NCBI GenBank assembly: GCA_016191225.1
Contig: JACPPC010000020.1
Span: 1 to 64,000 of the forward strand
Source: Gemmatimonadota bacterium
GTDB taxonomy: Bacteria > Gemmatimonadota > Gemmatimonadetes > Gemmatimonadales > Gemmatimonadaceae
Length of the DNA stretch: 64,000 bases
Reading direction: 5' to 3'
Part shown: piece by piece, positions 1,191 to 25,403 of the stretch
How positions within the stretch are numbered: position 1 is the stretch's first letter
Layout: the number at the start of each line of letters is the position of its first letter
Notes under the pieces: generated by a model
The model's input: the letters and a program-made list of their open reading frames with translations, nothing else
Database searches by the model: none
Told to the model about the DNA's origin: nothing
Position numbers and translations under genes: made by a program

Positions 1191-3651
1191 GCGTGCCGTC
1201 GGGGGACTTCCAGTGCGGCGCCCACGCCAGCGCCACGTAGTGCACCGTGATGTCGCCCGGCTTGGGCTTCACCGGGATCTCCACCAGCGCGACCGTCGCC
1301 GCGTCGAAGTCGGCGCCGAGTCCCTGCGCCTTTTCCGTCACCTCGGCCTCGATCGCCGCCAGCTGCTGCCGAATCGCCTCCGCGCTCTCGCCGGCACGCG
1401 CCACGTCCCCCGACTCCTTGCCGGCCCGCGCCACCCCGCGCGCCGCCGTGCCCACGCGGTTGAGCGTGGCGGCGCTGATCGCCTTGCGGCCGAGCACCGC
1501 GCCGAGGATCGCGCTGCCGATTCCCACCGCCGCCTGCAGCTTGCTCGCCGCCGCGTCCGACCGCTCCTTGGCCACGCGCGCCTCGGCCACGCGCAGCCGC
1601 TCGGTGAGCGACGCCACCCTGGCCGCGTACTTCTCGCGCAGCTTCGCCACGCCGCCGTCGCGCGACTCGCGCGCGAGCACCTGCAGCCGCGCGCGGAACT
1701 CCCCCTCGCCCTCGCCGGGGTTCGACACGACCTTCGGCGCCGAGCACGAATAGAGCGTCATCGCCTGGCTCTCCTTGGCCCACGCCGAGAAGAGCTTCGA
1801 CCACCTGGAGTACTGCTTCGGGTCCGCCGCCGGCTTCGGCACGTCGGCGAAGGCGGCCCCCTCGGCGGGGGCCTGCTCGAGCTGCGACGCGTCAAACGGC
1901 GCGTCCTCCCCCTGCCCCCAATCCACCGGCACCGGGCCGCTCTCGATCGCCGCCAGTCGCACCAGGTGCGTCGTCTCGTTGACGTTGTACCTGGTGCTCG
2001 ACACCACGATGTCGGCGGCGCCGGCCGCCATGGGCGTGTACACCAGCTGCGCCCCCGCCGCGCCCCGCGACGCCAGCGGGAGGAAGTACTGCGTGATCGC
2101 CGGCGCAAGCACCGGGCGGGCCCCTCCGCTCGGCGTCGCCGAAGCGGGCGCGACGGCACCACTCCCGCCGACCGTCGCCGCCGCCGGCGCGCCGGCCGCA
2201 CCACTCGCCCTCACCCTCGCCGCCGGTGCGGCGCCCGCGGCCGGCTTCTGCCCGCTCATCAGGGACTTGACCTGGTCGCGTGTCAGGGGTCCGGCGAGGT
2301 AGCTCAAGGTCCACCGCGTGCTGAACAGCACCGGCTCGGGCTCCTTCACGCTGTGCATCAGGAACACGCGCTTGCCAAGACCGGCAATCGTCCCCTCCAT
2401 CGTGCCGCGATCGAAGCTCCCGCCGCTCGCCGCCCCCTCGAGGCCGTCCATCAGCCGCTTCTTGTCGCGCTCCGTCTGCAGCCGCCCCACGAACCACAGC
2501 CCCGCGTTCGACAATCCCTTGTAGTCGAGGTCCACCGGGTTCTGCGTGCTGAGCACCACCCCCAGGCCGAACGCCCGCGCCTGCTTGAGCAGCGTCAGCA
2601 GGAGCATCTTGGTGGGCGGATTCGCCGTTGGCGGCATGTAGCCGAACAACTCGTCGATGTAGAGCAGCGCCCGCAGCGTCCCCGTTCCCGGCTGGCTGCG
2701 CATCCAGCTGATCAGCTCCGCCAGCAACAGCGACATGAAGAACATCCGCTCGCTGTCCGACAGGTGCGCGATCGACATCACCGACACCCGCGGCCTGCCG
2801 CCCGCCGTGTGCAGCAGCGCCGCCGCGCTCAGCGGCTCCCCCTGCGTCCAGGCCGCGAACCCGCTCGACGCCAGCAGCCCGTTGAGCTTCATCGCCAGCG
2901 CGAACCGCTCCTTGCCGGGGTAGAAGCTCTCCACGTCCATCACCCCGACCCTTGCCATCGGCGGCTGCTGGATCGCCGCCACGAGGCCGGCGAGGTCGAG
3001 GTCCCTTCCCGCCCCCCACGCCTGCTCGAGGATCGCCCCCAGCAGGATGTGCTCGCGGCTCTGCACCGGGTCGCCGTCCACGCCCACCAGCGTCAGCACG
3101 CCGGTCGCCGTCGCCGTCACGCGCTCGCGCCAGGCGTCGGGGTCGTCCTTGAGCGCCGCCGGCGGAGCGCTGAACGAGCCCAGAACGCTCAACGGCAGTC
3201 CCGCCACGCTCCCCGGCGTGTAGATCGCGAAGTCGGCCGCGTCGCGCAGGCGCTGGATCCGCGCCCCGTCCTGCCCGCTCGCCTCGAGCCCCCCCTTCCA
3301 CGCCGCGGCCTGCTTCGTGGCGAAGGCGTCGGCGTCGAGCCCCTGCTCCTGCGCCGACCGTTCGTCCACCCACGGGCGAAAGTCGGCCGGCGCCAGCAAG
3401 GGAAAGGTCAGCAGCACGTTGCCGAGGTCCCCCTTGGGATCCACCGCGATGACGGGGATCTTGTCGATCGCTGCCTCCTCGATCAGGCCGATCCCGAGGC
3501 CGGTCTTGCCGCTCCCCGTCATGCCGACGATCACCGCGTGCGTGGTGAAGTCCCTGGCGTCGGCCAGCAGCACGGTGCCGGAGGCCTTCTGCGTCTTCCC
3601 GTCCACCTGCTGGCCGAGGTAGAAGGCGCCGAGCTTCTCGAAGTCTTGCAT
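1165..3651 (-). CDS. HerA/FtsK-like ATP-binding protein (helicase HerA-like, DUF853-type)
   Basis: Walker A VIVGMTGSGKTGLGIGLIEEA, VIAVDPKGDLGN, LLYIDELFGYMPP (Walker B) and LSTQNPVDLDYKGL motifs; start chosen at MQDFEKLGAFYLG. Confidence 0.85.
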   Translation of the reverse strand: MQDFEKLGAFYLGQQVDGKTQKASGTVLLADARDFTTHAVIVGMTGSGKTGLGIGLIEEAAIDKIPVIAVDPKGDLGNVLLTFPLLAPADFRPWVDERSAQEQGLDADAFATKQAAAWKGGLEASGQDGARIQRLRDAADFAIYTPGSVAGLPLSVLGSFSAPPAALKDDPDAWRERVTATATGVLTLVGVDGDPVQSREHILLGAILEQAWGAGRDLDLAGLVAAIQQPPMARVGVMDVESFYPGKERFALAMKLNGLLASSGFAAWTQGEPLSAAALLHTAGGRPRVSVMSIAHLSDSERMFFMSLLLAELISWMRSQPGTGTLRALLYIDELFGYMPPTANPPTKMLLLTLLKQARAFGLGVVLSTQNPVDLDYKGLSNAGLWFVGRLQTERDKKRLMDGLEGAASGGSFDRGTMEGTIAGLGKRVFLMHSVKEPEPVLFSTRWTLSYLAGPLTRDQVKSLMSGQKPAAGAAPAARVRASGAAGAPAAATVGGSGAVAPASATPSGGARPVLAPAITQYFLPLASRGAAGAQLVYTPMAAGAADIVVSSTRYNVNETTHLVRLAAIESGPVPVDWGQGEDAPFDASQLEQAPAEGAAFADVPKPAADPKQYSRWSKLFSAWAKESQAMTLYSCSAPKVVSNPGEGEGEFRARLQVLARESRDGGVAKLREKYAARVASLTERLRVAEARVAKERSDAAASKLQAAVGIGSAILGAVLGRKAISAATLNRVGTAARGVARAGKESGDVARAGESAEAIRQQLAAIEAEVTEKAQGLGADFDAATVALVEIPVKPKPGDITVHYVALAWAPHWKSPDGTLVPAWKAG

Positions 3652-8316: not shown

Positions 8317-9171
8317 CTACGATGACCCGCGCGCCAGCAGCCGCTCCGTCTCCTCCCACAGCCCCTCGCCCCCCCGGTCCTCGCGCGCGGCGCGCGACAA
8401 CCGTCCCGGGCGACGCTCATGGAAGTAGCCGCCGCTCCGCTCGCCGGCTCCCGGGGCGGTGGCGAGCCACACGAGCGTGTCGGCCCCCTGCTCCTCCGTG
8501 CGCGCGAACCACTTGCCGACTCCGATCGCCGCCTTGAACAGCAGCCGGTTCGCGTCGCCGAACCGCGAGGCGACGAACCCGGGGTGAAAGGCCGCCGCGC
8601 TCACGTGCGCCGTCGCCGGATCGGCCGTGAGCCGGCGCGCCAGCGCCCGCGTGAAGAGGATGTTCATCAGCTTCGAGTTGCCGTACGCCCTCCAGCCGCG
8701 GTAGTGGCGCCCCGACTGCAGGTCGTCCAGGTCGAGGCGGGCCCGGCGGTGGGCGGCGCTCGCCGTGTTCACGATCCGCCCGTCGGGACTCGACGCGACC
8801 CGGTCGAGCAGGAGCTGCGTGAGGAGCACGTACGCGAGGTGGTTGAGCGCGAGGGTGCGCTCGAATCCCTCGGCGGTGAGCTGCCGCGTGTCGAAGATCG
8901 CCCCGGCGTTGTTGGCGAGCACGTCGAGCCGGGGCGCCGCGGCGCGGACCTGCGCCGCGAGGGCGCGCACCCCCGACATCAGCATCAGGTCGGCGGCGAA
9001 GGTGACGACCCCGCCGGCGCCGCGGCTGCGCAACTCGCGGGCGAGCCCCTCCAGGAGCACCGGGTTGCGTCCCGCCACCAGCAACCGGTGCGCCGGCACC
9101 GCGAGGGCGAGGGCCGCCGCGCGCCCGATCCCGCTCGTGCCGCCGGTGATGAGGATCGTGCGGTCGGCCAT
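8317..9171 (-). CDS. SDR family NAD(P)-dependent oxidoreductase
   Basis: [19 protein letters not shown] (TGxxxGxG), [14 protein letters not shown] (YxxxK). Confidence 0.9.
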
Positions 9172-9255
9172 CGGGGCAAGGTGGCGGCCTGGCTTGGCGC
9201 GGCACAAGCCGCCCCGTCGCCGGGAGCGCGGCGAGGGGCCCTCGCTTCAGCATCC

Positions 9256-9280
9256 GATCCTTCGCTCCGCCCGGGATGAC
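9256..9280. repeat. Dispersed repeat, copy 3 (reverse orientation)
   Basis: gatccttcgctccgcccgggatgac. Confidence 0.7.
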
Positions 9281-9290
9281 GGGCGAGTGG

Positions 9291-12134
9291 CTACGCCGCC
9301 GCGGCGTCCTCGTGGATCGCCTGCGCCAGCGCCCGCGCCAGGCTCTCCGGCGTGAACGGCTTGATCAGCAGCCCCCGCAACCCGCGCTGCCGCGCCGTCT
9401 CGGGCGTGAGCATGCCACTGTACCCGGTGGCGAGGATCACCGGCAGGTCCGGGCGGATGCGCAGCGCCTCGGCGGCGAGCTGCAGCCCCGACATCTCGGG
9501 CATCGTCAGGTCGGTCACCAGCACGTCGAACTGCCGCGCATCGCCGCGGAGCGCGAGCAGCGCCTCCCCGGCGCGCGTCACGACCGTGGCCCGGTAGCCG
9601 AAGCGCTGCAGCGTGCGCTCGGCGAGCCGCGCCAGCACCGGCTCGTCGTCCACGAACAGCACGTGCGCGCCGTTCCCCGGCGGCACCTCGTTGCCGGCCG
9701 GCTGCACGACCAGCGGCGACTCCGCGGACACCGGCAGGTGCACCACGAACCGCGTCCCGCGGCCGAGCTCGCTCGTGACGGTGATCGCGCCGTCGTGGCT
9801 GCGCACGATGCCATGCACCACGGCCAGGCCGAGCCCCGTCCCCTCCCCCGCCACCTTGGTGGTGAAGAAGGGCTCGAACACCCGGTCGAGGGTCTCGTGC
9901 GACATCCCGTGCCCGGTGTCCGTCACCGTGAGACGCACGTACGGCCCCACGTGCAGCTCGGGGACGCGGCGGCCGAGGTCCTCGTCCACCCACACCGACT
10001 CGAGGGCGACCGACATCGTTCCCCCCTGCTCGCGCATCGCGTGCACGGCGTTGGTGGCGAGGTTCATGATCACCTGGTGCAGCTGCGTCGCGTCGGCGAT
10101 CACGAACGGCAGGTCGGGGCTGATCCGCTCCTCGATGGTGACCGACGCCGGCACCACGGCGCGCAGCAGCGCCGTCGCCTCGCGCAGCACGGGGGCCACC
10201 GCCATCGTGCGCCGCTCCTGCTCCTGCCGGCGGCTGAAGGTCAGGATCTGCCGCACCAGTTCGGCGGCGCGCCGGCTGGCGCGCTCCACCTCGCCGAGGA
10301 ACTCCTGGGCGCGGTGCTGCTCGTCGAGCTCCTGGCGCGCGAGCTCGAGGTTGCCCACCAGCGCGGCGAGGATGTTGTTGAAGTCGTGCGCCACGCCGCC
10401 GGCCAGGGTGCCGAGGGCCTCCAGCTTCTGCACCTGGCGCAGTTGCATCTCGAGCTGGGCGCGCTCGGTCACGTCCTCGACCACCGCGATGCAATACGGT
10501 GGCACGCCGGGCCGGTCGCGCACGATGCTCGCCGTCAGCCGCCCGCGCACGATCACGCCGTCCTTGCGGCGGTAGCGCTTCTCCACCTGGTACGAGTCGC
10601 GCTGGCCGCTCACGAGCTGCGTGAACAGCCCCACGTCCTGGTGCACGTCGTCGGGGTGCGTGAACTCGGTGAAGCGCATCCGCTGCAGCTCCTCGGCGGA
10701 GTAGCCGAGCCAGTCGCAGAGCGGCGGGTTGGCTTTCATCGGCCGGCCATCGAGGGCCACGAGGGCCATCGGCATCGCCGCCCGCTCGAAGATCGCCCGG
10801 AACTCGGCCTCGCTGGCGCGCGTCGCCTCGGCGGCGCGCACCCGCTCGGTGAGGTCCACGAGCGTCGTGACCTGCTGCTCGCCGGCACGCACCGTCTGCA
10901 ACTCCACGTGCCGGATCGTGCCGTCGGCCGTGACCAGGTTGGCCGGGAGGGGCGGCATGAGGGCCCCGCCCTCGGCGCTCGTGGCGGCGCGGCGGTCGGT
11001 CTCGCTGCGCAGCGCGGCGCGGTAGGCGAGGTCGGGGAAGGCGCGCTTCCACCAGGCGTCCACGGTGTCGGTGTGGCCGGCGGTGCCCCCCACCAGCGTC
11101 GCCAGCGCCGGGTTCACGTACAGCGACTGGTTGTCCTCGCCCGCGACCATCATCGCCACCGGCGCCGCGTCGACGAGCCGCCGGAACTTCCCCTCGCTCA
11201 CCTTGAGCCGGCGCAGCGACGTGCGCTGCCCGTCCACCGTGGCGGCGACGAGCAGCACCCCCACGTACACGACGGACAGGTACGCCTGCAGGATCAGCAC
11301 ATGGTGCGCCCGCTCGCCGGGCAGCGCCGCGAACACGCCGCGACCATGCATCGTCCCCCAGGCCGCGATCACCGCCAGCGGCGCCAGCGACCACGCCACC
11401 CCCATCAGCCCCAGGCGCAGCGCCGCCAACACGAACGGCAGCACGATCACGGCCAACAGGGGGCGCATCGGCTCGGCTTGCGCGGCCGGCATCAGGAAAA
11501 CCAGCGCCGCCCCCGGCAGCACCACCGCGAACACGGCCACGACCTCGAGCCAGTGACGCCACGGGGCTTCGCGCCCCCACCGGTACACCCGCCGCGCCGT
11601 GAGCCACACCGGGGCGGCGACGATCACGCCAAGGGCGTCGCCGATCCACCACTGCACCCACGACACCAGGTTCATGGTGCCCGACCCGGCAACGGCGCGC
11701 ACCACCACGCCGATCGCCCCCGTGAGCGGCCCGCTCACGAGGATCGGGATCGCCATGAAGGCGAGCACCCCGCGCACCGTGGTCAGCGACGAGCCGTCGG
11801 GGGCAAGCCGGCGCAACAGCGCCGCCGACAGCATGGCGACGCTCAGCGTCGCGACCGCGTAGCCGGCGGCCAGCGCGTGCTCGGGCACGCTGCGGCTGGC
11901 CACCACGTAGCGCGTGATCCCCGCCAGCAGCATTACCCGCCACCAGTCACGCCGCGCCGTGAGCAGCAGCCAGCCGAACAGCAGCCCCGCGGGTGGCCAG
12001 AGCGGCGCCACCGACCCGCGTTCCCCGACGAGGCGGGTGCTGAGCTCGGTCAGGAGGTAGAAGATCGCGCCGCGCAGGAGCAACTCGCTCCAGGTTCGAC
12101 GCGTGGGCGCCACAACCGTGTCCGTCACGAACAT
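9291..12134 (-). CDS. Hybrid sensor histidine kinase: MASE1-like membrane domain, PAS domains, HisKA/HATPase, receiver
   Basis: LWPPAGLLFGWLLL (MASE1-like), HDFNNILAALVGNLE (H box), GTGLGLAVVHGIVRSHDG (G box), VLFVDDEPVLARL...LVTDLTMPEMSGLQL...LIKPF (REC). Confidence 0.9.
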   Translation of the reverse strand: MFVTDTVVAPTRRTWSELLLRGAIFYLLTELSTRLVGERGSVAPLWPPAGLLFGWLLLTARRDWWRVMLLAGITRYVVASRSVPEHALAAGYAVATLSVAMLSAALLRRLAPDGSSLTTVRGVLAFMAIPILVSGPLTGAIGVVVRAVAGSGTMNLVSWVQWWIGDALGVIVAAPVWLTARRVYRWGREAPWRHWLEVVAVFAVVLPGAALVFLMPAAQAEPMRPLLAVIVLPFVLAALRLGLMGVAWSLAPLAVIAAWGTMHGRGVFAALPGERAHHVLILQAYLSVVYVGVLLVAATVDGQRTSLRRLKVSEGKFRRLVDAAPVAMMVAGEDNQSLYVNPALATLVGGTAGHTDTVDAWWKRAFPDLAYRAALRSETDRRAATSAEGGALMPPLPANLVTADGTIRHVELQTVRAGEQQVTTLVDLTERVRAAEATRASEAEFRAIFERAAMPMALVALDGRPMKANPPLCDWLGYSAEELQRMRFTEFTHPDDVHQDVGLFTQLVSGQRDSYQVEKRYRRKDGVIVRGRLTASIVRDRPGVPPYCIAVVEDVTERAQLEMQLRQVQKLEALGTLAGGVAHDFNNILAALVGNLELARQELDEQHRAQEFLGEVERASRRAAELVRQILTFSRRQEQERRTMAVAPVLREATALLRAVVPASVTIEERISPDLPFVIADATQLHQVIMNLATNAVHAMREQGGTMSVALESVWVDEDLGRRVPELHVGPYVRLTVTDTGHGMSHETLDRVFEPFFTTKVAGEGTGLGLAVVHGIVRSHDGAITVTSELGRGTRFVVHLPVSAESPLVVQPAGNEVPPGNGAHVLFVDDEPVLARLAERTLQRFGYRATVVTRAGEALLALRGDARQFDVLVTDLTMPEMSGLQLAAEALRIRPDLPVILATGYSGMLTPETARQRGLRGLLIKPFTPESLARALAQAIHEDAAAA

Positions 12135-15576: not shown

Positions 15577-16008
15577 ATGTTCACATCCATGCCTCTCATT
15601 CTCACCGCCGCGTTCGGGCTCACGCAGCTCGCGGCAGGCTCGCTCGGCTGGACCGGCACCATGGCCGCACCGGCGACGAACCCCGGCCACTACGCGATCC
15701 AGGGGACCGTCGATATGGAGCCCTTCGGTCCGCAGCAGACACACGTACAGGTGAAGATCGCGAACACGCTGCCGGGGGAGGAGTACAGCTGGTCGCTCCA
15801 CCGTGGCGCGTGCGGGGCCGACGACAAGGCGCTCGCCGCCACGACCGGAAGCGGGACGCTGGTCGAGGGTGGGGGCGGGACGGCGCAGTCGGCGGCGATG
15901 TTCGGCTTCTCGCTCCCCGCCGAGGGCCGGTTCCATGTGAGCGTGCGGGCGAACAATGGCGCGACGCCGCGGGCGGTCGTCGCGTGCGCCGAGCTGCGGG
16001 CGCCGTAG
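15577..16008 (+). CDS. Small secreted hypothetical protein (paralog of 19095..19529)
   Basis: Signal peptide-like N-terminus; shares WTGT, PGEEYSWSLHRGACG and GRFHVSVRANNG patterns with the second copy. Confidence 0.6.
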   Translation: MFTSMPLILTAAFGLTQLAAGSLGWTGTMAAPATNPGHYAIQGTVDMEPFGPQQTHVQVKIANTLPGEEYSWSLHRGACGADDKALAATTGSGTLVEGGGGTAQSAAMFGFSLPAEGRFHVSVRANNGATPRAVVACAELRAP

Positions 16009-16014
16009 CGCCCC

Positions 16015-16111
16015 GTCGTCCTGAGCGAAGCGAAGGACCTGCTTTTGCGGATCCAGGAAGAGCAGATCCTTCGCAGCGCTCAGGATGACACCGCTGCGCT
16101 CAGGATGACTT
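16015..16111. repeat. Dispersed repeat cluster, copy 4 (inverted units)
   Basis: gtcgtcctgagcgaagcgaaggacctgc...gcagatccttcgcagcgctcaggatgac...gctgcgctcaggatgac. Confidence 0.8.
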
Positions 16112-16540
16112 CTTCTGCAAGGGGTGCTTCCATTTGAGCCCGGGAAAGCGGGCGAAGTCGCGGTCGGTGGTGATGAGGGTGGCGTGGTTCTCGATCGCGA
16201 GGGCGGCGAGCCAGGCGTCGGTGACGAGGTTGCCGCGGGCGTCAGCGGCGCGGCAGAGGTTCTCGAAGATCTCCCAGTGGGTATCGCCCGGATGCACCAG
16301 CGACAGGGCGGGCGTGGCACGGAGGAGGCGAATGAAGGTGAAGGCCTGCTCGCGCGTGATCGGCTCGGCCCAGAGCTTCCGGTGCGTGACGATCCGCACC
16401 ACGGCGCCCAGCGACTCCGGCGCGACGGCGACAGGCTCGGAACCCGCGCAGGCGAGATCGAGCCATTCGCGGTAATCGGCGTTCCGCTCGGCGTCCTTGC
16501 GCACCGCGTACACGAGCACGTTGACGTCGAGCAGGATCAC
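16100..16540 (-). CDS. vapC: VapC-family PIN domain toxin
   Basis: VILLDVNVLVYAVRKD...NLVTDAWLAALAIENHATLITTDRDFARFPGLKW; GTG start overlaps the antitoxin stop. Confidence 0.9.
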   Translation of the reverse strand: MILLDVNVLVYAVRKDAERNADYREWLDLACAGSEPVAVAPESLGAVVRIVTHRKLWAEPITREQAFTFIRLLRATPALSLVHPGDTHWEIFENLCRAADARGNLVTDAWLAALAIENHATLITTDRDFARFPGLKWKHPLQKKSS

Positions 16541-16785
16541 TCGATGCCGTCCATCAGGTCCATCAGCTCGGAATTGCTGTCGAGGTTGACGCCGGGCAAC
16601 AGGCCCCCGCGGCCATAGGACGGGAGCTTGACCGGCTTGCGGCCCGCGGCTACGGGCTTGGCGAGGTACTCGGCGAGGGCGTGTTCCATGACCATCGTCA
16701 GCGTGGTATCCCGCTCTCGGGCGTACGCCTTCGCGCGCTTCATCAGCGCCGGGCTCAGGCGGAGGGTGGTGCGCGTGGTAGCCAT
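16537..16785 (-). CDS. vapB: VapB-type antitoxin (ribbon-helix-helix)
   Basis: MATTRTTLRLSPALMKRAKAYARERDTTLTMVMEHALAEYL; directly upstream of and coupled to vapC. Confidence 0.85.
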   Translation of the reverse strand: MATTRTTLRLSPALMKRAKAYARERDTTLTMVMEHALAEYLAKPVAAGRKPVKLPSYGRGGLLPGVNLDSNSELMDLMDGIE

Positions 16786-16827
16786 ATGTCAGTATGTCTA
16801 GCAAGTGGCGTCAGGTATGTCAACGCC

Positions 16828-16856: not shown

Positions 16857-16934
16857 CTGCTTGTGCGGTAGCGACCCGAACCCCGGCCCCGGGTTGCGGC
16901 GCGGCCCTCCGCTCGCGAGACTCCCTTGCTCACC

Positions 16935-18854
16935 ATGCCCTCCCGCAACGACCCCTGTCCCTGCGGCTCCGGGAAGAAGTACAAGCACTGCCATCTCGAG
17001 AGTGACGAGGCGGCGCGGCGCCCGGCTCGTGCATTGCACGTCGAGCGCGGCGGCGGCGCGGTCCGCACGCGCGGCGACCTCCCGCCGGCGGGCGACATTG
17101 GGGAGCAGTGGGAGCTCGTCTTTGCCCCGCTCCAGATCTCCATCGATGACTCGCCGGCGGCCCGGCCGGTGGCGATCGTGGTCGCCGCCGGCCGCCTCGC
17201 GCTTCACGTGGGCCTCGAGTCATCCCTTGGCGCCGATGCCGCGGCCCTGGCCGGCGCGGCGCTGCGCGCCGTCGACGCGGCCCGCGACGCATCCGGCAGG
17301 GAGCCCACCAGGCTGACCCTGCGCGACGCGGGGGTGGCCGATCTGGTGCGCGACGCGCTCGCTCCGCGGGGGGTGACGGTACACACCTCCGACTCGCTCC
17401 CCAGCGCCGACGAGGCCGCCCGGTCGCTCCGGAGCTTCATGGCTCCGGGGTCGAATCCCGACTTGCCGGCGGTCTCGCACCCGGAAACGTGGGCGGGCTG
17501 GGGGCTCGAGCGCGCGCTGGTTGGCCGGCTGCACGCCGCCGCCGCGTCGTATTATCGGGCGGCGCCGTGGAAGGAGCTTTCGGATGAGGAGCCGCTGTTC
17601 ACGGGAGCCGGCGACCCGCCGGAATGGACCGCCGTGGTGCTTGGCAACGCGGGGCTGACCTTCGGGCTCGCCCTGTATCGCGACCCGGACGATCTGTTTG
17701 CGCAGCTCGACGCACCCGACGGCACGGTGATTCCTCAGCCTCCAGGGGGACCGGTGCTCAGCCTGACGTTCGGGCCCGCCGACGACCTGCCGTTGCGCCA
17801 GAAGCGCGAGACACTCGCGGCGCGCTGGGAGGTCGCGGGCCCCAGCGCCTGGCCGGCCCTCGTCGCCATCGGCACGCCGGGGGGCGGTGTCACCGCCGGC
17901 GACGTCGAGGCCCTCATCGAGCGACTCGAGTCGATTCCGCGGTTCGTGAAGGCGCACCGCACCGAGCTCGGCCGGAAGGTGGACACGGACTGGCCGATCA
18001 TCTGGACCGATCCGGTGAACGGGCTGCCAGTCGAGCTTCATGGGGAGCTGGCAGCGATCGTGCCCGGCGTCTTCACGCCACCCGCCGAGCTGGCGCCGTG
18101 CGGGCCTGAGGGAACGGGGGCACGCCCAACGGCGACACTTCGGGCGGTTTCCCCGGGCGACCGCCGCGAGCTCGCCCGGAATGTCGAGCAGGAGTACGTC
18201 GCGCACCTCGTCAAGACCAGGTCGGACGGATCGACCATCCTTCGTCGCCACCGGATCGCGGCACGCCTGCTGACTTACCTGTATGAACACCAGCGCGTTC
18301 CCGTCGAATCGCTGACCGAGTACGAGTTGCGGCAGTTCGTGTACGTGCTCTGCGCGGATGACGACGACCCGAACGCGCCGACCCCGGAGGGGGCGCTCGA
18401 GGCGCTCCGGCATTTCCTCGCGTTCCTGCGCAATGCTCGCAAGGTGCGCTGCCCCTGGGCGGCGGCGATCGTGGCGGACGTGCCGACGCTGGAGGCCCGA
18501 GGGCAGCTCCGGCCGCGACGCGAGGACGGCACGGACGCGAATACCACCGACTGGTCGGCCGACCTGGAGGACGACCTGATGTCGCGGTTACTGCTCCTCC
18601 CGGTGGGGAAGGAGGTCGGCATCGACTGGCCCACCAGCGCCACGCAGGACAAGGAGGGCGTTTCGCTCCTCGCCCACCGGCAGTGGCTCGCGTGGCGCGA
18701 CGAGGTCATCCGCGCCGGGACCACGAAGCCGGGGGCGGTGCACGCCGCCCTGCTGCCCCGGCTCGCGGCCTGGCTCGACGCGCCGCACAAGGCGCTCGCG
18801 GGACGGTCGCCGCGCGCGGCGCTGGCGCGGAAGCGGACAAAGCGCTCACGGTAG
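16935..18854 (+). CDS. SEC-C metal-binding motif protein, large, otherwise uncharacterised
   Basis: MPSRNDPCPCGSGKKYKHCH at the N-terminus; remaining ~610 aa not recognised. Confidence 0.8.
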   Translation: MPSRNDPCPCGSGKKYKHCHLESDEAARRPARALHVERGGGAVRTRGDLPPAGDIGEQWELVFAPLQISIDDSPAARPVAIVVAAGRLALHVGLESSLGADAAALAGAALRAVDAARDASGREPTRLTLRDAGVADLVRDALAPRGVTVHTSDSLPSADEAARSLRSFMAPGSNPDLPAVSHPETWAGWGLERALVGRLHAAAASYYRAAPWKELSDEEPLFTGAGDPPEWTAVVLGNAGLTFGLALYRDPDDLFAQLDAPDGTVIPQPPGGPVLSLTFGPADDLPLRQKRETLAARWEVAGPSAWPALVAIGTPGGGVTAGDVEALIERLESIPRFVKAHRTELGRKVDTDWPIIWTDPVNGLPVELHGELAAIVPGVFTPPAELAPCGPEGTGARPTATLRAVSPGDRRELARNVEQEYVAHLVKTRSDGSTILRRHRIAARLLTYLYEHQRVPVESLTEYELRQFVYVLCADDDDPNAPTPEGALEALRHFLAFLRNARKVRCPWAAAIVADVPTLEARGQLRPRREDGTDANTTDWSADLEDDLMSRLLLLPVGKEVGIDWPTSATQDKEGVSLLAHRQWLAWRDEVIRAGTTKPGAVHAALLPRLAAWLDAPHKALAGRSPRAALARKRTKRSR

Positions 18855-19094
18855 GCGCGCGCCGGAGGTCATCGGGACGGGCGCACCGATACGCCCTTAC
18901 CCGGCCGGCCGTTGGCGCCGCACTCGCTAACACTTCTTCAGCGCGCCGGCGGCTAACGGCCCCCGCCCCCGGGCGTATTCCCTGTCAGTGGCACGCGCGA
19001 CGCGACCGGGCATGATCGGCACCCGCGGCGCGCGTCCTGACCGGGGCCGACGAGCGCCACTCTGCCGTCCATATCAATGAAGGGGGGAACACCA

Positions 19095-19529
19095 ATGATC
19101 TTCGCACCCGCGCGCATCCTGGCCGCGTTCGTCGCACTCGGCGCCCTCGCCGACGGCCCCAGCTGGACCGGCACGATCGCCGCCCTCGCCGACGGCACGA
19201 GCGAGTACAGCGTTGGCGGCACGGCGAGCATGACCGCCGGCGGCCCGCGCAACGCGATCGTGAGCATCTCCGTCGCCCATGGCGTGCCCGGGCAGGAGTA
19301 CGCCTGGTCGCTCTACCGCGGCGCTTGCGGCGACGACACCAGGGCCGTCGCGCCCACCGGCTCGTACTCGACGCTGGTCGGCATCGAGGGTGGCGACGCC
19401 TCGGCGATCGCCGAGTTCAACTTCGCCGTGCCGACGAGCGGCGCCTTTCACGTGAGCGTGGCGACGACGGGCCAGAACGCCGGGCTCGTGGTGGGGTGCG
19501 CGAACCTCGAGCTGGTGCAGGGCAAGTAG
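19095..19529 (+). CDS. Small secreted hypothetical protein (paralog of 15577..16008)
   Basis: RBS-like AAGGGGGG upstream of ATG; WTGTIAAL...PGQEYAWSLYRGACGDD...GAFHVSVATTGQNAGLVVGCANLEL. Confidence 0.65.
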   Translation: MIFAPARILAAFVALGALADGPSWTGTIAALADGTSEYSVGGTASMTAGGPRNAIVSISVAHGVPGQEYAWSLYRGACGDDTRAVAPTGSYSTLVGIEGGDASAIAEFNFAVPTSGAFHVSVATTGQNAGLVVGCANLELVQGK

Positions 19530-19594: not shown

Positions 19595-19634
19595 AACGCG
19601 GCCCGGATCTCCGTGCGGAGAGCCGGGCCGTGTT
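19595..19634. terminator. Strong GC-rich hairpin between convergent genes
   Basis: AACGCGGCCCGG-A-TCTCC-GTGC-GGAGA-G-CCGGGCCGTGTT (12-bp + 5-bp stems, one G-T, one mismatch). Confidence 0.55.
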
Positions 19635-19660
19635 GGGTTCACGGCAGCACGCCGCCGTCT

Positions 19661-20026
19661 CTACTCTCGGCTCGGCTCCGCGCGTCCCCGACTCGTGGCG
19701 ACCGGATACTTCTCCGCATTTTGCAGCAGTTTCGCGTTCGCGACGTCGAGCAGGTCAAGGTCCAGGCGCTCTGCCAGCGTCATGAGTATCAGGAAGACGT
19801 CGCCCAATTCCTGCTCAATGCGCACTCGCGCGGAGGAGTCAAGGTTTGCACGCTCCGACTCCTCGCTCGACTTCCATCGCAGGATGGCGACGAGCTCTCC
19901 GACTTCGGAGGCAAGCGCCATGGCGAGATTCTTTACCCCGTGATAGCGCGACCAGTCGCGCTCTGAGTTGAATCGCCGAAGCGCGTGCTTGAGTTCCTCG
20001 AGGTTCGGCGGCCGTCCCCCGTTCAT
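19661..20026 (-). CDS. MazG-like nucleotide pyrophosphohydrolase
   Basis: ERDWSRYHGVKNLAMALASEVGELVAILRWK...VRIEQELGDVFLILMTLAERLDLDL (ExxEL...ExxD motif). Confidence 0.85.
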   Translation of the reverse strand: MNGGRPPNLEELKHALRRFNSERDWSRYHGVKNLAMALASEVGELVAILRWKSSEESERANLDSSARVRIEQELGDVFLILMTLAERLDLDLLDVANAKLLQNAEKYPVATSRGRAEPSRE

Positions 20027-20958
20027 GGCTTGAAGACCGTGTCGGAGTGCCACTCGAGGAACTGCTGCGACGGCCTCGCGGCCGCGATGCTGGGCATGCG
20101 CAGGTCTTGCCCGTCGTGTGAGTAGTAGATCTTGCCGTTCGACCACTTCTTCCTGAGCTGCGGCGAGACGCGCACCCGGTAGTCGGGCGTTACGCCGATC
20201 AGCCCCGCGTCGAAGAGGGTGTGGATGTCCACGCGCAGCAGAAGACCGTTGTTCAGAACGTGCTGCCCTCCCCTGCTCACCGGCATGATGTGCGCAGCCT
20301 CAAGCACGGGAACGGTCCGTTCACCGGATATCGCACACCGACGTTGGTAGATTTCCTCGACGACTACTCGGAAGCCGCCCTGACCCAAGCGGCGCTTCGC
20401 CAGCACTGGTTCACTCCACACCGCCCCGGGACGCTCCGCATAGTGGCTGGCGTCGGGGGCCTCCGCAGCAACGCGCCGACCCGAGCCGAAGAGCGACTCC
20501 CGCGCCCAATCGAACAACCGCCGGCCACTCCCAGCACTCGCGTCGAACGCCATCCCCTGCGGGTTGTTCAGACCCAGATCGCTTGGTGGCGCAATCCAAG
20601 CCTCGCTGGGAAAGAAGACCGGGTCGAGCAGGACCACGCACCCGATCGATCGACTCGGGTCGTCCTCCTTGTGCTTGGCGAGCGTCGCTCGGAAGGTCTC
20701 GTAGTCGGGTAGTCCGTTCTTGTCGCCGAAGGCGCTCCACGCCGCTGTGATCGACTGAAGGCTGAAGCGCAGGAAGACTCCACCGCCCGCGATCTTGTTG
20801 ATCCGCCCCTTCAGCCGGAACAGGAGAAGCTCGCCCGTCTGGAGCTGCCGAAACGGCTGCACGCCGCCAGGCCGCCAGAAGTTCACCTCATCGGTGTTTG
20901 GGCGACGGGAGAGGTACTCGAACCAGTCGCGGTCGGTCGGATAGACGTAGATCTTCAC
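20023..20958 (-). CDS. HNH endonuclease with N-terminal EVE/PUA-like domain (COG3440-type predicted restriction endonuclease)
   Basis: C-terminal RRCAISGERTVPVLEAAHIMPVSRGGQHVLNNGLLLRVDIHTLFDAGLIGV (HNH_2); N-terminal WRPGGVQPFRQLQTGELLLFRLKGRINKIAGGGVFLRF; overlaps the mazG-like start by 4 nt. Confidence 0.85.
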   Translation of the reverse strand: MKIYVYPTDRDWFEYLSRRPNTDEVNFWRPGGVQPFRQLQTGELLLFRLKGRINKIAGGGVFLRFSLQSITAAWSAFGDKNGLPDYETFRATLAKHKEDDPSRSIGCVVLLDPVFFPSEAWIAPPSDLGLNNPQGMAFDASAGSGRRLFDWARESLFGSGRRVAAEAPDASHYAERPGAVWSEPVLAKRRLGQGGFRVVVEEIYQRRCAISGERTVPVLEAAHIMPVSRGGQHVLNNGLLLRVDIHTLFDAGLIGVTPDYRVRVSPQLRKKWSNGKIYYSHDGQDLRMPSIAAARPSQQFLEWHSDTVFKP

Positions 20959-21065
20959 GAGAGGAAGATGCAGGCGAGTCGCCGAGAGGGCGCCCTGAAG
21001 CAGTCGTCCATCGAAGAAACGGGCAAGCCGCCCGCTTCACAAGCCGGGCGGGGCCCAGAAGTACC

Positions 21066-21101
21066 ACACGGCCCGGTCTCAGGGATGAGATCGGGCCGTG
21101 T
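21066..21101. terminator. Strong hairpin downstream of the ribonucleotide reductase gene
   Basis: ACACGGCCCGGTCTC-AGGGAT-GAGATCGGGCCGTGT, 15-bp stem with one G-T pair. Confidence 0.6.
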
Positions 21102-21144: not shown

Positions 21145-23715
21145 TCACCCGCACTCGCTGTACCCGCACACATGGCACTTCGCGCACCCCTCCGCGAACT
21201 CCAGCCCCGACCCGCAATCCGGGCACGTCCCCATGAAGCTCTGCGCCCCCGCGTCCGCGGCGCCGAACAGCCCCGGCTGCGCCGCGTCCGCCGTGGCCGG
21301 CACCGGCGTGCTGATCATCTCCCGCGCCGGCACCTGCGGCGCCGCGGCCCCACCCACGCCCGGGATCTCCTGCTGCACCCCCTGGCTGTCGCGGAACCAC
21401 TCCTCGAGCGCGATCCCGATCGCGTCCGGCACGCTCAGCACCTTGTTCGGCCCGAAGCCCACCGCGCGATCGCTCGAGATCCCGCGCAGCTGGCGCGTCA
21501 CCTGGTTGAGCGGGATCCCTGACCGCAGGGCGAGCGAGATCAGCCGCCCCACCGCCTCGGCGTCGGCCATCGCGCTGCCGCCGGCCTTGCCGAGGTTGAT
21601 GAAGACGTCGAACGGCTGCCCGCGATCGTCCTCGCTGATGTGCACGAACATCGTGCCCAGCGGCGTCTCCTTGCGGATGCTCATCGAGCGCAGCTTGTCC
21701 GGCCGCGCCCGCTTCTGCCGGCGCTGCAGGTTCTCGCTCTCGAGCTCGAACACCACCTTCTTGAGCCGCTCGATCTCGTGGTCCTTCTCGGCCAGCACGC
21801 CGTGCAGCTCGCCGATCTCGCGCTTGGTCGCCGGCGTCGTGGCCGGGAACTCGCCCGTCATCGGGAACTCGCCGGTGCTGCCGGTCACGCCGCCCGCGGC
21901 CTTCACCTCCTCGCGCACCTTGGCCGCCTGCTCCGTGGCGCCGGTGCTGAGCACCTGGTTGTCGCGGCTCCCGTCCCGGTACACGGTCACTCCCTTGCAC
22001 TTCGCCGCGTACGCCTGCTCGTAGATGTGGCGCACGTCGTCGATCGTCGCCGTGTAGGCGAAGTTCGTCGTCTTGCTGATCGCCGAGTCGCAGTGCTCCT
22101 GGAACGCGGCCTGCATCCGGATGTGCCACTCGGGGGCGATGTTGTTCGCCGTGTTGAACACCCCCTGCCACCTGGCCGGCACCTCGGGGAACTTGATGTG
22201 CCCCTCGGTCGCGATCCGCTCCATCAGCGCGTCGCTGTACCATCCCTCGCGCTTGGCGACGGCGACGAAGTCCTCGTTCACGTCGGGCATCCGCACGCCG
22301 GCCTGGTTGCGCATGAAGGCCACGGCGAACAGCGGCTCGAGTCCGCTGCTGCAGCCGGCGATGATGCTGATCGTCCCCGTGGGGGCGACGGTCGTGACGT
22401 TGCAGTTGCGCAGGAGCTGCATGGGACGGATCCGCGCGCCGCTCGCGTCGCGGGCGCAGGTCTCGTCGGGGCCGAAGATGCTGCGCGCCCACTCCGGGAA
22501 CGGCCCCCGCTCGTTGGCGAGGCGCTCGCTCTCGCGCTTCCCCTCGACGTCCAGAAACTCCATCACCTTGCGGCCCATCGCCACGCCTTCGGGCGAGTCG
22601 TACGGGATGCCCAGGCGCACGAGCATGTCGGCGAAGCCCATCACGCCGAGGCCAATACGACGAATGCGCTTGCTGAGCGCGTCGATCTCCGGCAGCGGGT
22701 ACTTGTTGACGTCGATGATGTTGTCGAGGAAGTGCGTGCTGGCGTGGATGTCCATGGCGAGGCGGTCCCAGTCCATCGCGCCGTCGGTCACGTACCAGCC
22801 AAGGTTCACCGAGCCGAGGTTGCAGACGTCGTACGGCAGCAGCGGCTGCTCGCCGCACGGATTGGTGGCCTCGTAGGCCCCGAGGTGCGGCACGGGGTTG
22901 TAGCGGTTGGCCTCGTCGATGAAGAAGACGCCGGGCTCGCCGGTGCGCCAGGCGCCCAGGATCATCTTCTCCCACACCTCCTTCGCCTTGAGCTGCCCGA
23001 CGACGACCTTCCCGATCGGGTCGACGAGGTCGTACTCGGCGTCGGCCTTGAGGGCGTCCATGAACCTGGTCGTGACGCCGACGGAGATGTTGAAGTTCAC
23101 GATCTGCGTCAGGTCTTCCTTGCAGGCGATGAAGTCGAGGATGTCGGGGTGGTCGACGCGGAGGATCCCCATGTTGGCGCCGCGGCGCGTCCCCCCCTGC
23201 TTCACGGCGTCGGTGCTGGCGTCGTAGAGCTTCATGAAGCTCACCGGGCCGCTGGCGACGCCGGTCGTGGAGCGCACCATGGAGCCCTTGGCCCGCAGGC
23301 GCGAGAAGCCAAAGCCGGTGCCGCCGCCGCTCTGGTGGATGAGCGCCATGCTGCGCAGCGTGTCGTAGATGCCGTTGTTGCCGTTGCTGAGGGCGTCCTC
23401 GACGGGGAGCACGAAACAGGCCGAGAGCTGGCCCAGGGGGCGGCCGGCGTTCATGAGGGTCGGCGAGTTGGGCTCGAAGCGGCGCTGGGTCATGAGCGCG
23501 TAGAACTCCGTCGCCACGGCCTCGACCTGCGCGTCCGTGGCGCCGTACCGACGGTCGGCCTCGGCCACCACGGTCGCCACGCGCCAGAACATCTCCTCCG
23601 GCGACTCCATCGGCGTTCCCTTGGCGTCCTTGATCAGGTAGCGCTTCTCGAGGACGGTGCGCGCGTTGCTGCTGAGCTGCGCGGGGACTGCCGGCGGGGT
23701 GGGCGTGATGGGCAT
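21145..23715 (-). CDS. nrdJ: Vitamin B12 (adenosylcobalamin)-dependent ribonucleotide reductase
   Basis: RRFEPNSPTLMNAGRPLGQLSACFVLPVEDAL, GGGTGFGFSRLR, NPCGEQPLLPYDVCNLGSVNL, C-terminal Zn-binding CPDCGSGLEFAEGCAKCHVCGYSECG. Confidence 0.93.
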   Translation of the reverse strand: MPITPTPPAVPAQLSSNARTVLEKRYLIKDAKGTPMESPEEMFWRVATVVAEADRRYGATDAQVEAVATEFYALMTQRRFEPNSPTLMNAGRPLGQLSACFVLPVEDALSNGNNGIYDTLRSMALIHQSGGGTGFGFSRLRAKGSMVRSTTGVASGPVSFMKLYDASTDAVKQGGTRRGANMGILRVDHPDILDFIACKEDLTQIVNFNISVGVTTRFMDALKADAEYDLVDPIGKVVVGQLKAKEVWEKMILGAWRTGEPGVFFIDEANRYNPVPHLGAYEATNPCGEQPLLPYDVCNLGSVNLGWYVTDGAMDWDRLAMDIHASTHFLDNIIDVNKYPLPEIDALSKRIRRIGLGVMGFADMLVRLGIPYDSPEGVAMGRKVMEFLDVEGKRESERLANERGPFPEWARSIFGPDETCARDASGARIRPMQLLRNCNVTTVAPTGTISIIAGCSSGLEPLFAVAFMRNQAGVRMPDVNEDFVAVAKREGWYSDALMERIATEGHIKFPEVPARWQGVFNTANNIAPEWHIRMQAAFQEHCDSAISKTTNFAYTATIDDVRHIYEQAYAAKCKGVTVYRDGSRDNQVLSTGATEQAAKVREEVKAAGGVTGSTGEFPMTGEFPATTPATKREIGELHGVLAEKDHEIERLKKVVFELESENLQRRQKRARPDKLRSMSIRKETPLGTMFVHISEDDRGQPFDVFINLGKAGGSAMADAEAVGRLISLALRSGIPLNQVTRQLRGISSDRAVGFGPNKVLSVPDAIGIALEEWFRDSQGVQQEIPGVGGAAAPQVPAREMISTPVPATADAAQPGLFGAADAGAQSFMGTCPDCGSGLEFAEGCAKCHVCGYSECG

Positions 23716-24291
23716 TCGGGCGTTCTCCAACTGCGGCGTGATATGACTGCGACTAGGGACTGCGATTGGTAACGATATCGAAAAAAGCGGCCCTGGTTGC
23801 GTCGCGGTGTGCAGTAGAGCGACGAACGAAAGCGGGGGGTCAAGCTAGAGTCGTACGTGAATCCGCGCCAGAGAGTAGGCAACGCTTTGTGCGGCAACGA
23901 GTTCCGGTATGCACATCACGAATTCGTACACAGAATCGCGTTGTCCACCGATGACCGATTGTCGCCTTGGTGGCGCCTATTGGAACAGTATGACGACAGC
24001 GATTTTGGCGTTGACAAGTCATTTACTCGCAATCTGTTACGAAGTTGGGAGCAGAGTGACACGAATCATTCGCTCGCCCGAGGCGACCGGTGGCGGGAGC
24101 CCTGAAGTTTGCCTGCTGGCACGTGGTGTGCTCCTGACGGTGAGAGCGGGGAGAGGGTAACGGCGAGCAAGATGGGGCGCGCGCAACCAGGGAGCCACGG
24201 AGGGGCACGGAGCGGCACGGAGGAGGCAATCGCCTCCGGACTGGAGGTGCCGGGGGGCGCGTGACGTGCCAGCGGCCGAGCGAGGCGCGAA

Positions 24292-24916: not shown

Positions 24917-25010
24917 GCGGTGCAATGAATCGTTGCCGCCGGCAACACCGCGGTGCGGGCGCTGGGTTTCGGAGTGCCAAGATTCCCGGACTCGTTCGGG
25001 AGTCGCCGCA

Positions 25011-25403
25011 GTGCCGCGAAACTACCACGTCCACATCCTCGCGAGCCGTTCGCGCCGGCTCTACATCGGCGTGACCGGACGGCTCCGCCATCGCGTCGAG
25101 CAACATCGCACGAACCGCGAGGACTGCTTCACCGCCCGTTATCAGATCTTCCGGCTGGTGTACGTCGAGGCCTTCGCCCGGCCGATCGAGGCGATCGAGC
25201 GTGAGAAGGCGCTCAAGGGGTGGAGCCGGGCGCGGAAGCTCGCGCTCGTGGGCACGCAGAATCCGACGTGGGATGACTACTTGCCGCTGGAACCGCGCGG
25301 TCGTGCAGAGCCGCCGCGACGCGGCGGCGAAGGACCTGCTCGTGGGGTCGGTCGAACCGGAACGACAGAAGCAAAAGCAGATCCTTCGCTTCGCTCAGGA
25401 TGA
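25011..25403 (+). CDS. GIY-YIG nuclease family protein (YhbQ/UvrC-like domain)
   Basis: NYHVHILASRSRRLYIGVTGRLRHRVEQHR...ARYQIFRLVYVEAFARPIEAIEREKALKGWSRARKLALV; stop codon lies inside a repeat copy. Confidence 0.88.
   Translation: MPRNYHVHILASRSRRLYIGVTGRLRHRVEQHRTNREDCFTARYQIFRLVYVEAFARPIEAIEREKALKGWSRARKLALVGTQNPTWDDYLPLEPRGRAEPPRRGGEGPARGVGRTGTTEAKADPSLRSG

Follow-up and report, generated by a model that had tools for sequence, protein, structure and literature searches.

An overlapping PUA-HNH nuclease and MazG-like gene pair in Gemmatimonadota: a candidate type IV-like anti-invader module

Locus organization

A 64,000-nucleotide stretch of DNA from a Gemmatimonadota bacterium (GenBank assembly GCA_016191225.1, contig JACPPC010000020.1, positions 1 to 64,000), referred to here as the window, carries two small overlapping genes on its minus strand. 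One encodes a predicted HNH endonuclease and the other a MazG-like protein. The features of the locus are as follows.

20023..20958, minus strand: HNH endonuclease gene (PUA/ASCH-HNH, predicted modification-dependent), 311 aa, GTG start
20476..20958, minus strand: N-terminal modified-base-reader-like domain of the HNH protein, residues 1-161, PUA superfamily and nearest ASCH by AlphaFold2 and Foldseek
20026..20406, minus strand: C-terminal HNH_2 nuclease domain, residues 185-311, with H223, N237, and H246 invariant
19661..20026, minus strand: MazG-like gene, DCTPP1-type (d)NTP pyrophosphohydrolase by similarity, 121 aa, ATG start
20023..20026, minus strand: 4-nt stop/start overlap ATGA (ATG of MazG, TGA of HNH)
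21145..23730, minus strand: ribonucleotide reductase gene, nrdJ-type by domains, the conserved anchor upstream of the insertion and outside the system
21066..21101, no strand given: hairpin A, terminator-like, directly behind nrdJ
19596..19633, no strand given: hairpin B, related to hairpin A, directly behind mazG

An earlier note on this DNA had described an HNH gene (20958-20023) that overlaps a MazG-like gene (20026-19661) by 4 nt. Both open reading frames are confirmed, and the overlap is the sequence ATGA, through which the two genes are probably translationally coupled. The GTG start of the HNH gene is shared in position by its homologues, and a start at the -3 offset is also available in the homologous pairs at loci L038, L043, L048, L086, and L105. 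Pfam assigns the HNH protein to HNH_2 (PF13391, E=3.5e-12) and the MazG-like protein to MazG-like (PF12643, E=3.3e-7, over its cut-off). The note had also remarked that the pair is poorer in GC than its surroundings, and its quoted counts of 36/60 and 48/60 are exact on recounting. Specifically, the pair has a GC content of 64.0% versus 71.8% for the window, a value near the window's minimum, with only 0.08% of 1298-bp windows lying lower. At third codon positions, GC is 0.82 and 0.77 in the two genes versus 0.93-0.97 in nrdJ, tldD, dapH, and the amidase gene.

Hairpins A and B bracket the cassette, and their common pattern occurs at no other site in the 3.04-Mb assembly. The upstream order amidase-dapH-nrdJ is kept in G346, a genome of the same genus, in which nrdJ is 83-84% identical. 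The sequence that follows nrdJ in G346 is unrelated to that of the window, and none of the window's downstream genes lies behind nrdJ in 10 nrdJ-bearing relatives (about 1.5 kb covered in most, more in G346 and G047). The region behind nrdJ in G346 does contain a similar hairpin, and GTTGCAC follows it just as it follows hairpin B in the window. This arrangement is consistent with an insertion at the nrdJ terminator accompanied by terminator duplication; hairpins A and B may also simply be terminators. Judged from its sequence, the low-GC cassette is an acquired, compositionally foreign insert.

Other genes of the window deserve mention. Two small proteins of about 145 aa (15577-16008 and 19077-19529) look alike, with WTG, PGxEYxWSLxRGACG, and FHVSV motifs common to both by eye; between them lie a protein with a SEC-C motif (16926-18854) and, on the minus strand, a gene for a PIN domain (16100-16804). 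Further along, an open reading frame at 24933-25403 (YHVHILASRSRRLYIGVTG...) resembles, by eye, a GIY-YIG nuclease-type protein.

The HNH protein

The nuclease half of the HNH protein matches VcaM4I (6yex) with a profile (E=1.4e-12), and it is the only half that sequence comparison detects. The PADLOC type II HNH model likewise matches the C-terminal half. Assignment to phosphorothioate-dependent restriction (NF045808) was rejected, the score being 69 bits against a cut-off of 180 and the match being confined to the HNH half.

Structure prediction extends the comparison to the N-terminus. An AlphaFold2 model of the full-length protein (pLDDT 82) retrieves VcaM4I as the top Foldseek match (E=8.7e-11), followed by TagI (1.9e-5) and ASCH proteins. 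For residues 1-161 modeled separately from an 89-sequence alignment (pLDDT 93, pTM 0.87), the best matches are ASCH proteins, with ZmASCH leading (E=1.5e-5, TM up to 0.60/0.67) and af2351 and TTHA0113 next. The N-domains of McrB and the YTH domains are weaker matches, and the EVE-type structures 1zce and 2gbs fit poorly (TM about 0.3-0.35). The same 89-sequence alignment gives T8, W12, N26, F27, W28, P30, F36, N81, G82, and G106 as the invariant residues of the domain. The earlier note had called the N-terminus EVE/PUA-like and had asked for a prediction of its structure. The PUA-like half of that description stands. An EVE domain proper is not supported: Pfam finds no EVE match in the HNH protein, and the predicted fold is nearest ASCH. 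By its model, the N-domain is a PUA-superfamily fold for which ASCH-like is a better label than EVE. PUA-superfamily domains inspect a flipped base.

Among characterized enzymes, the EVE-HNH type IV enzyme VcaM4I is the nearest in plan. Like the window's protein, it has about 310 aa and joins an N-terminal PUA-superfamily reader to a C-terminal HNH domain; it is the best Foldseek match, its HNH half is homologous, and the H/N/H residues are conserved. Unlike in VcaM4I, the window's N-domain is unrecognizable as EVE by sequence and is nearer ASCH by fold. The accessible part of the description of VcaM4I presents it as a reader of 5mC/5hmC and mentions no MazG partner (PMC7897488). TagI (SRA-like/HNH), EcoKMcrA, and enzymes of the ScoMcrA/SprMcrA type also combine a reader with an HNH domain, with weak HNH similarity to the window's protein and with different reader domains. 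The ASCH proteins ZmASCH and YqfB resemble the N-domain in fold; they are stand-alone proteins without HNH, and YqfB is a hydrolase, which acts on N4-acylated cytosines and cytidines (PMC11037411). The specificity of ASCH readers is unsettled, with no proven 5mC specificity; m6A and N4-acyl-cytosine have been suggested as marks (PMC11037411). The window's protein matches the broad type IV kind (PUA reader plus nuclease) in its PUA-fold N-domain, in its nuclease domain, and in the lack of a cognate methyltransferase among the genes examined at the locus. Together, sequence and model suggest that the HNH protein probably cuts DNA in a modification-dependent manner.

The MazG-like protein

The closest solved relatives of the MazG-like protein are dCTP pyrophosphatase 1 (DCTPP1)/RS21-C6 (E=6.2e-20 over 111 residues). 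With an offset of 22, the DCTPP1 metal ligands E63, E66, E95, and D98 correspond to E41, E44, E73, and D76 (the ExxE...ExxD motif), W47 and W73 to W25 and W51, K121 to K99, and N125 to N103. All of these MazG residues are invariant in 14 MazG homologues. Two of the eight pocket residues named in PMC4491611 are replaced in the window's protein, His38 by Leu16 and Tyr102 by Ile80. Thus, of the modified-cytosine pocket (H38, W47, W73, Y102), the tryptophans are kept in 14/14 homologues, and H38 and Y102 are replaced in the window's protein. The window's gene further differs from that of DCTPP1/RS21-C6 in being bacterial and in its coupling to a nuclease gene; the metal ligands and both stacking tryptophans are common.

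The preferred substrates of DCTPP1 are dCTP and the 5-methyl and 5-halo derivatives of dCTP, 5-methyl-dCTP being favored; the enzyme lowers cellular 5-methyl-dCTP and DNA methylation, and in docking W47 and W73 contact the methylated base (PMC4491611). Given this preference and the retained residues, a modified dCTP would be a reasonable substrate for the window's MazG. The MazG superfamily accepts a broad range of nucleotides, and we put even odds on the window's enzyme acting on a modified dNTP.

Conservation of the pair

The earlier note had predicted that HNH-MazG pairs would be conserved across genomes, and had held that confinement to close relatives would speak against it. The pairs are conserved, and they are not so confined. 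Within the phylum, a MazG gene lies directly adjacent to the HNH gene, on the same strand, at 13/25 HNH loci (24 relatives plus the window). This count takes in L055, in which both genes occupy one damaged frame, and leaves out L056, in which a transposase-like insertion splits the HNH gene. An HNH-MazG fusion was considered for L055 and rejected; the HNH part is without its C-terminus and the MazG part without an internal piece, making a frameshift or deletion likelier.

More widely, the best 80 HNH loci of a scan of bacterial genomes (genome_contigs) include 6 with a directly adjacent MazG gene (L058, L086, L094, L102, L105, and L120). At four further loci (L068, L099, L122, and L129), a MazG gene lies no more than a few kb away and a helicase gene is also present, so that inclusion of these three-gene forms gives 10/80. 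The adjacent pairs come from five phyla and the larger set from seven, phyla being those labeled in records that are mostly metagenome bins, in which single assignments may err. In the remaining 70/80, the stretch read contains no MazG gene, so the nuclease does not depend on one. A viral contig (L227) supplies one case of an overlapping HNH-MazG pair, and in a Deinococcus plasmid (L139) the small gene behind HNH gives no MazG match.

Among 181 immediate neighbors of HNH genes, MazG is the largest recurrent family; the second largest, at 10 loci, is an HNH paralogue. Chance adjacency of HNH and MazG is expected at about 1e-4 or less per locus, because strong matches to the window's MazG subfamily occur in just 22/342 genomes of the phylum, versus the half of the phylum's HNH loci at which adjacency is observed. 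Mapped onto the HNH tree, the presence of MazG requires 15 label changes, of which well-supported branches force at least 11; shuffled labels require 21. Pairing is clustered on the tree, yet, as these 11-15 changes show, it has been re-made many times. Distances among HNH proteins track those among their MazG partners (Mantel r=0.76-0.79, with 0.79 for adjacent pairs; 0/5000 permutations as high), a correlation to which common host ancestry contributes.

At L056 (7686-10258), the HNH homologue appears to be split by a transposase-like gene at 8426-9661. Locus L038 has two near-identical MazG genes (3230-3562 and 8808-9140), the second about 5 kb from the paired copy and with no HNH directly beside it. 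Two divergent HNH paralogues stand in tandem at L034, L053, L054, L063, L066, L067, L073, L093, L099, and L119; these perhaps form hetero-oligomers or provide paired specificities.

Partners of the MazG subfamily

The association also holds when approached from MazG. Strong matches to the window's MazG subfamily (E<1e-30, 342 genomes of the phylum) are found in 22 genomes at 23 loci and are separated by a clear gap from other MazG matches. In 19/22 genomes, the gene sits beside a nuclease or helicase gene. The partner belongs to the HNH family of the window in 13 cases; the others are a divergent HNH protein (L209), an HNH_2 protein with a Schlafen-group-3 (SLFN-g3) helicase (L210), an EVE-NOV_C protein (L208), and, in three cases, an SLFN-g3 helicase (L211-L213). 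No nuclease or helicase partner lies beside MazG in the stretch read at L214-L216. The EVE-NOV_C case is a reader-type partner of a different kind, and there too the MazG gene overlaps its partner by 4 nt (L208, 513-2452). At L211 (5324-11371), the MazG gene overlaps the SLFN-g3 helicase gene, and genes for a BrxC/D ATPase and a DEAD helicase precede it in a BREX-like setting.

The Schlafen-type helicase is an optional third part of the cassette in relatives. It is a protein of 620-700 aa with an SLFN-g3 helicase domain (PF09848), present at 7/23 loci where MazG is near HNH versus 4/82 where it is not (Fisher p=0.002). The window's genome lacks this helicase.

Defense context and methyltransferases

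The earlier note had also pointed to defense islands as a context to check. Relatives provide it: neighbors of the wider HNH family include Mrr, GmrSD, type I and type III restriction genes, DUF499, and Schlafen AlbA proteins. The window does not; no defense island surrounds the pair behind nrdJ, and its own neighbors are mostly non-defense genes. We consider a defense role for the HNH-MazG cassette very probable.

Methyltransferases bear on what the nuclease might recognize. No cognate methyltransferase is present among the neighboring genes examined at the window locus, the C5-methyltransferase family PF00145 has 0 matches in the window's own genome, and a single N6-like methyltransferase motif appears among the 181 immediate HNH neighbors in relatives. 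A type II system with a cognate methyltransferase was rejected, as almost none is adjacent. A nuclease that cut ordinary 5mC DNA would be expected to keep C5-methyltransferases out of carriers, but no depletion is seen: PF00145 occurs in 11 of about 26 carriers and in 5/13 carriers with the pair, versus 88/342 genomes overall. This result makes it unlikely that plain 5mC is the target: the mark would be something else, or sequence context would play a part. A single locus departs from this picture. At L051 (G026:C5:30344-33211), a C5-methyltransferase gene lies about 1 kb downstream of the HNH homologue in a type II-like arrangement, and some HNH family members, such as that of G026, may work differently.

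Models for function

The hypothesis that we favor, to which we assign a probability of roughly 45% from sequence and structural models, is that the cassette is a horizontally acquired, type IV-like anti-invader module composed of a nuclease and a modified-dNTP hydrolase. The N-domain would recognize invading DNA by a modified base, probably a cytosine derivative, after which the HNH domain would cut the marked DNA. MazG, for its part, would hydrolyze the matching modified dNTP to the monophosphate. A single chemical mark would be hit twice, once in DNA and once in the precursor pool. The default form of the pool arm is that the phage would be starved of its modified dNTP. The two layers of immunity that the earlier note proposed are in tension here: with the modified dNTP removed, phage DNA would be harder for the HNH nuclease to detect, though more open to ordinary restriction. 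A larger claim is that coupled reader-nucleases and matched MazG enzymes, with interchangeable readers (PUA-HNH, EVE-NOV_C) and an optional Schlafen-type helicase, constitute a distinct and widespread strategy of attacking one mark at two levels. We offer this claim as a speculation that may well prove wrong.

The first rival concerns the pool arm. Instead of being an antiviral arm, MazG could protect the host itself by clearing modified dNTPs, whether produced by damage, by salvage, or by the breakdown of phage DNA, before they enter host DNA and provoke cutting by the modification-dependent nuclease; it would in effect be a precursor-level antitoxin. The ATGA coupling and the co-divergence of the two proteins fit a toxin-guard pair, and the reduction of cellular 5-methyl-dCTP and DNA methylation by DCTPP1 (PMC4491611) also speaks for this account. 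A parallel exists in the MutT-type pyrophosphohydrolase genes that adjoin SauUSI homologues (PMC7641849), where a pyrophosphohydrolase gene also accompanies a type IV restriction gene, although MutT belongs to a different superfamily. Most HNH homologues of the wide scan, however, have no MazG nearby, which argues that a guard is not generally needed, and MazG also pairs with an SLFN helicase in the absence of any HNH. We judge self-protection to be an unlikely, if serious, account.

A second rival separates the two proteins. MazG would attack ordinary dCTP or another canonical nucleotide upon infection and so starve phage replication, in the manner of dCTP deaminases and dGTPases, and the HNH protein would be an independent restriction nuclease. 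DCTPP1 does cleave dCTP (PMC4491611), and the accessible part of PMC13092281 predicts nucleotide-targeting domains, MazG included but without validation, to act in defense. That part of the study treats MazG as a defense domain and does not describe its pairing with a PUA-HNH nuclease. Against depletion, the 121-aa MazG has no fused sensor or regulatory domain, and unregulated loss of dCTP would be costly; moreover, the nuclease partners of MazG are repeatedly of the modification-reader type. We find this account improbable.

More improbable again is a type II-like, sequence-specific role for the HNH nuclease, with MazG as a housekeeping pool cleaner that accompanies it by chance or linkage. 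The PADLOC match and the family member in G026 with its C5-methyltransferase about 1 kb away speak for it. It is difficult to square with one methyltransferase-like motif among 181 immediate neighbors, with a pairing that arose many times, and with a MazG subfamily that gives few strong matches, most of them next to a nuclease or helicase gene. Finally, a MazG that degrades a signaling or stress nucleotide ((p)ppGpp, for example, or a second messenger of immunity) and so tunes the response to infection, not the DNA precursor pool, would fit the broad substrates of the superfamily and the SLFN-g3 pairings without HNH, which show that MazG can serve another partner, but the nearest solved relatives are dCTP pyrophosphatases, both tryptophans are kept, and no signal synthase is seen beside the pair, making this idea very improbable indeed.

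Outlook

The reader-nuclease is of a known kind and the MazG is of a known family; the element that seems new is the pair of PUA-HNH and MazG. We found no published description of such a pair in the searchable literature, though an earlier mention may exist. Type IV enzymes cut modified phage DNA. The fate of modified DNA precursors in cells equipped with such enzymes has been little studied, and a repeatedly assembled, co-diverging pair of a probable modified-base reader-nuclease and a DCTPP1-like hydrolase opens it to direct testing with just two small genes. The set of MazG partners, HNH, EVE-NOV_C, and SLFN-g3 helicase, is available for comparison. By cleaning the nucleotide pool, the pair could supplement restriction with a second layer of immunity or, alternatively, keep the nuclease from cutting the host's own DNA.
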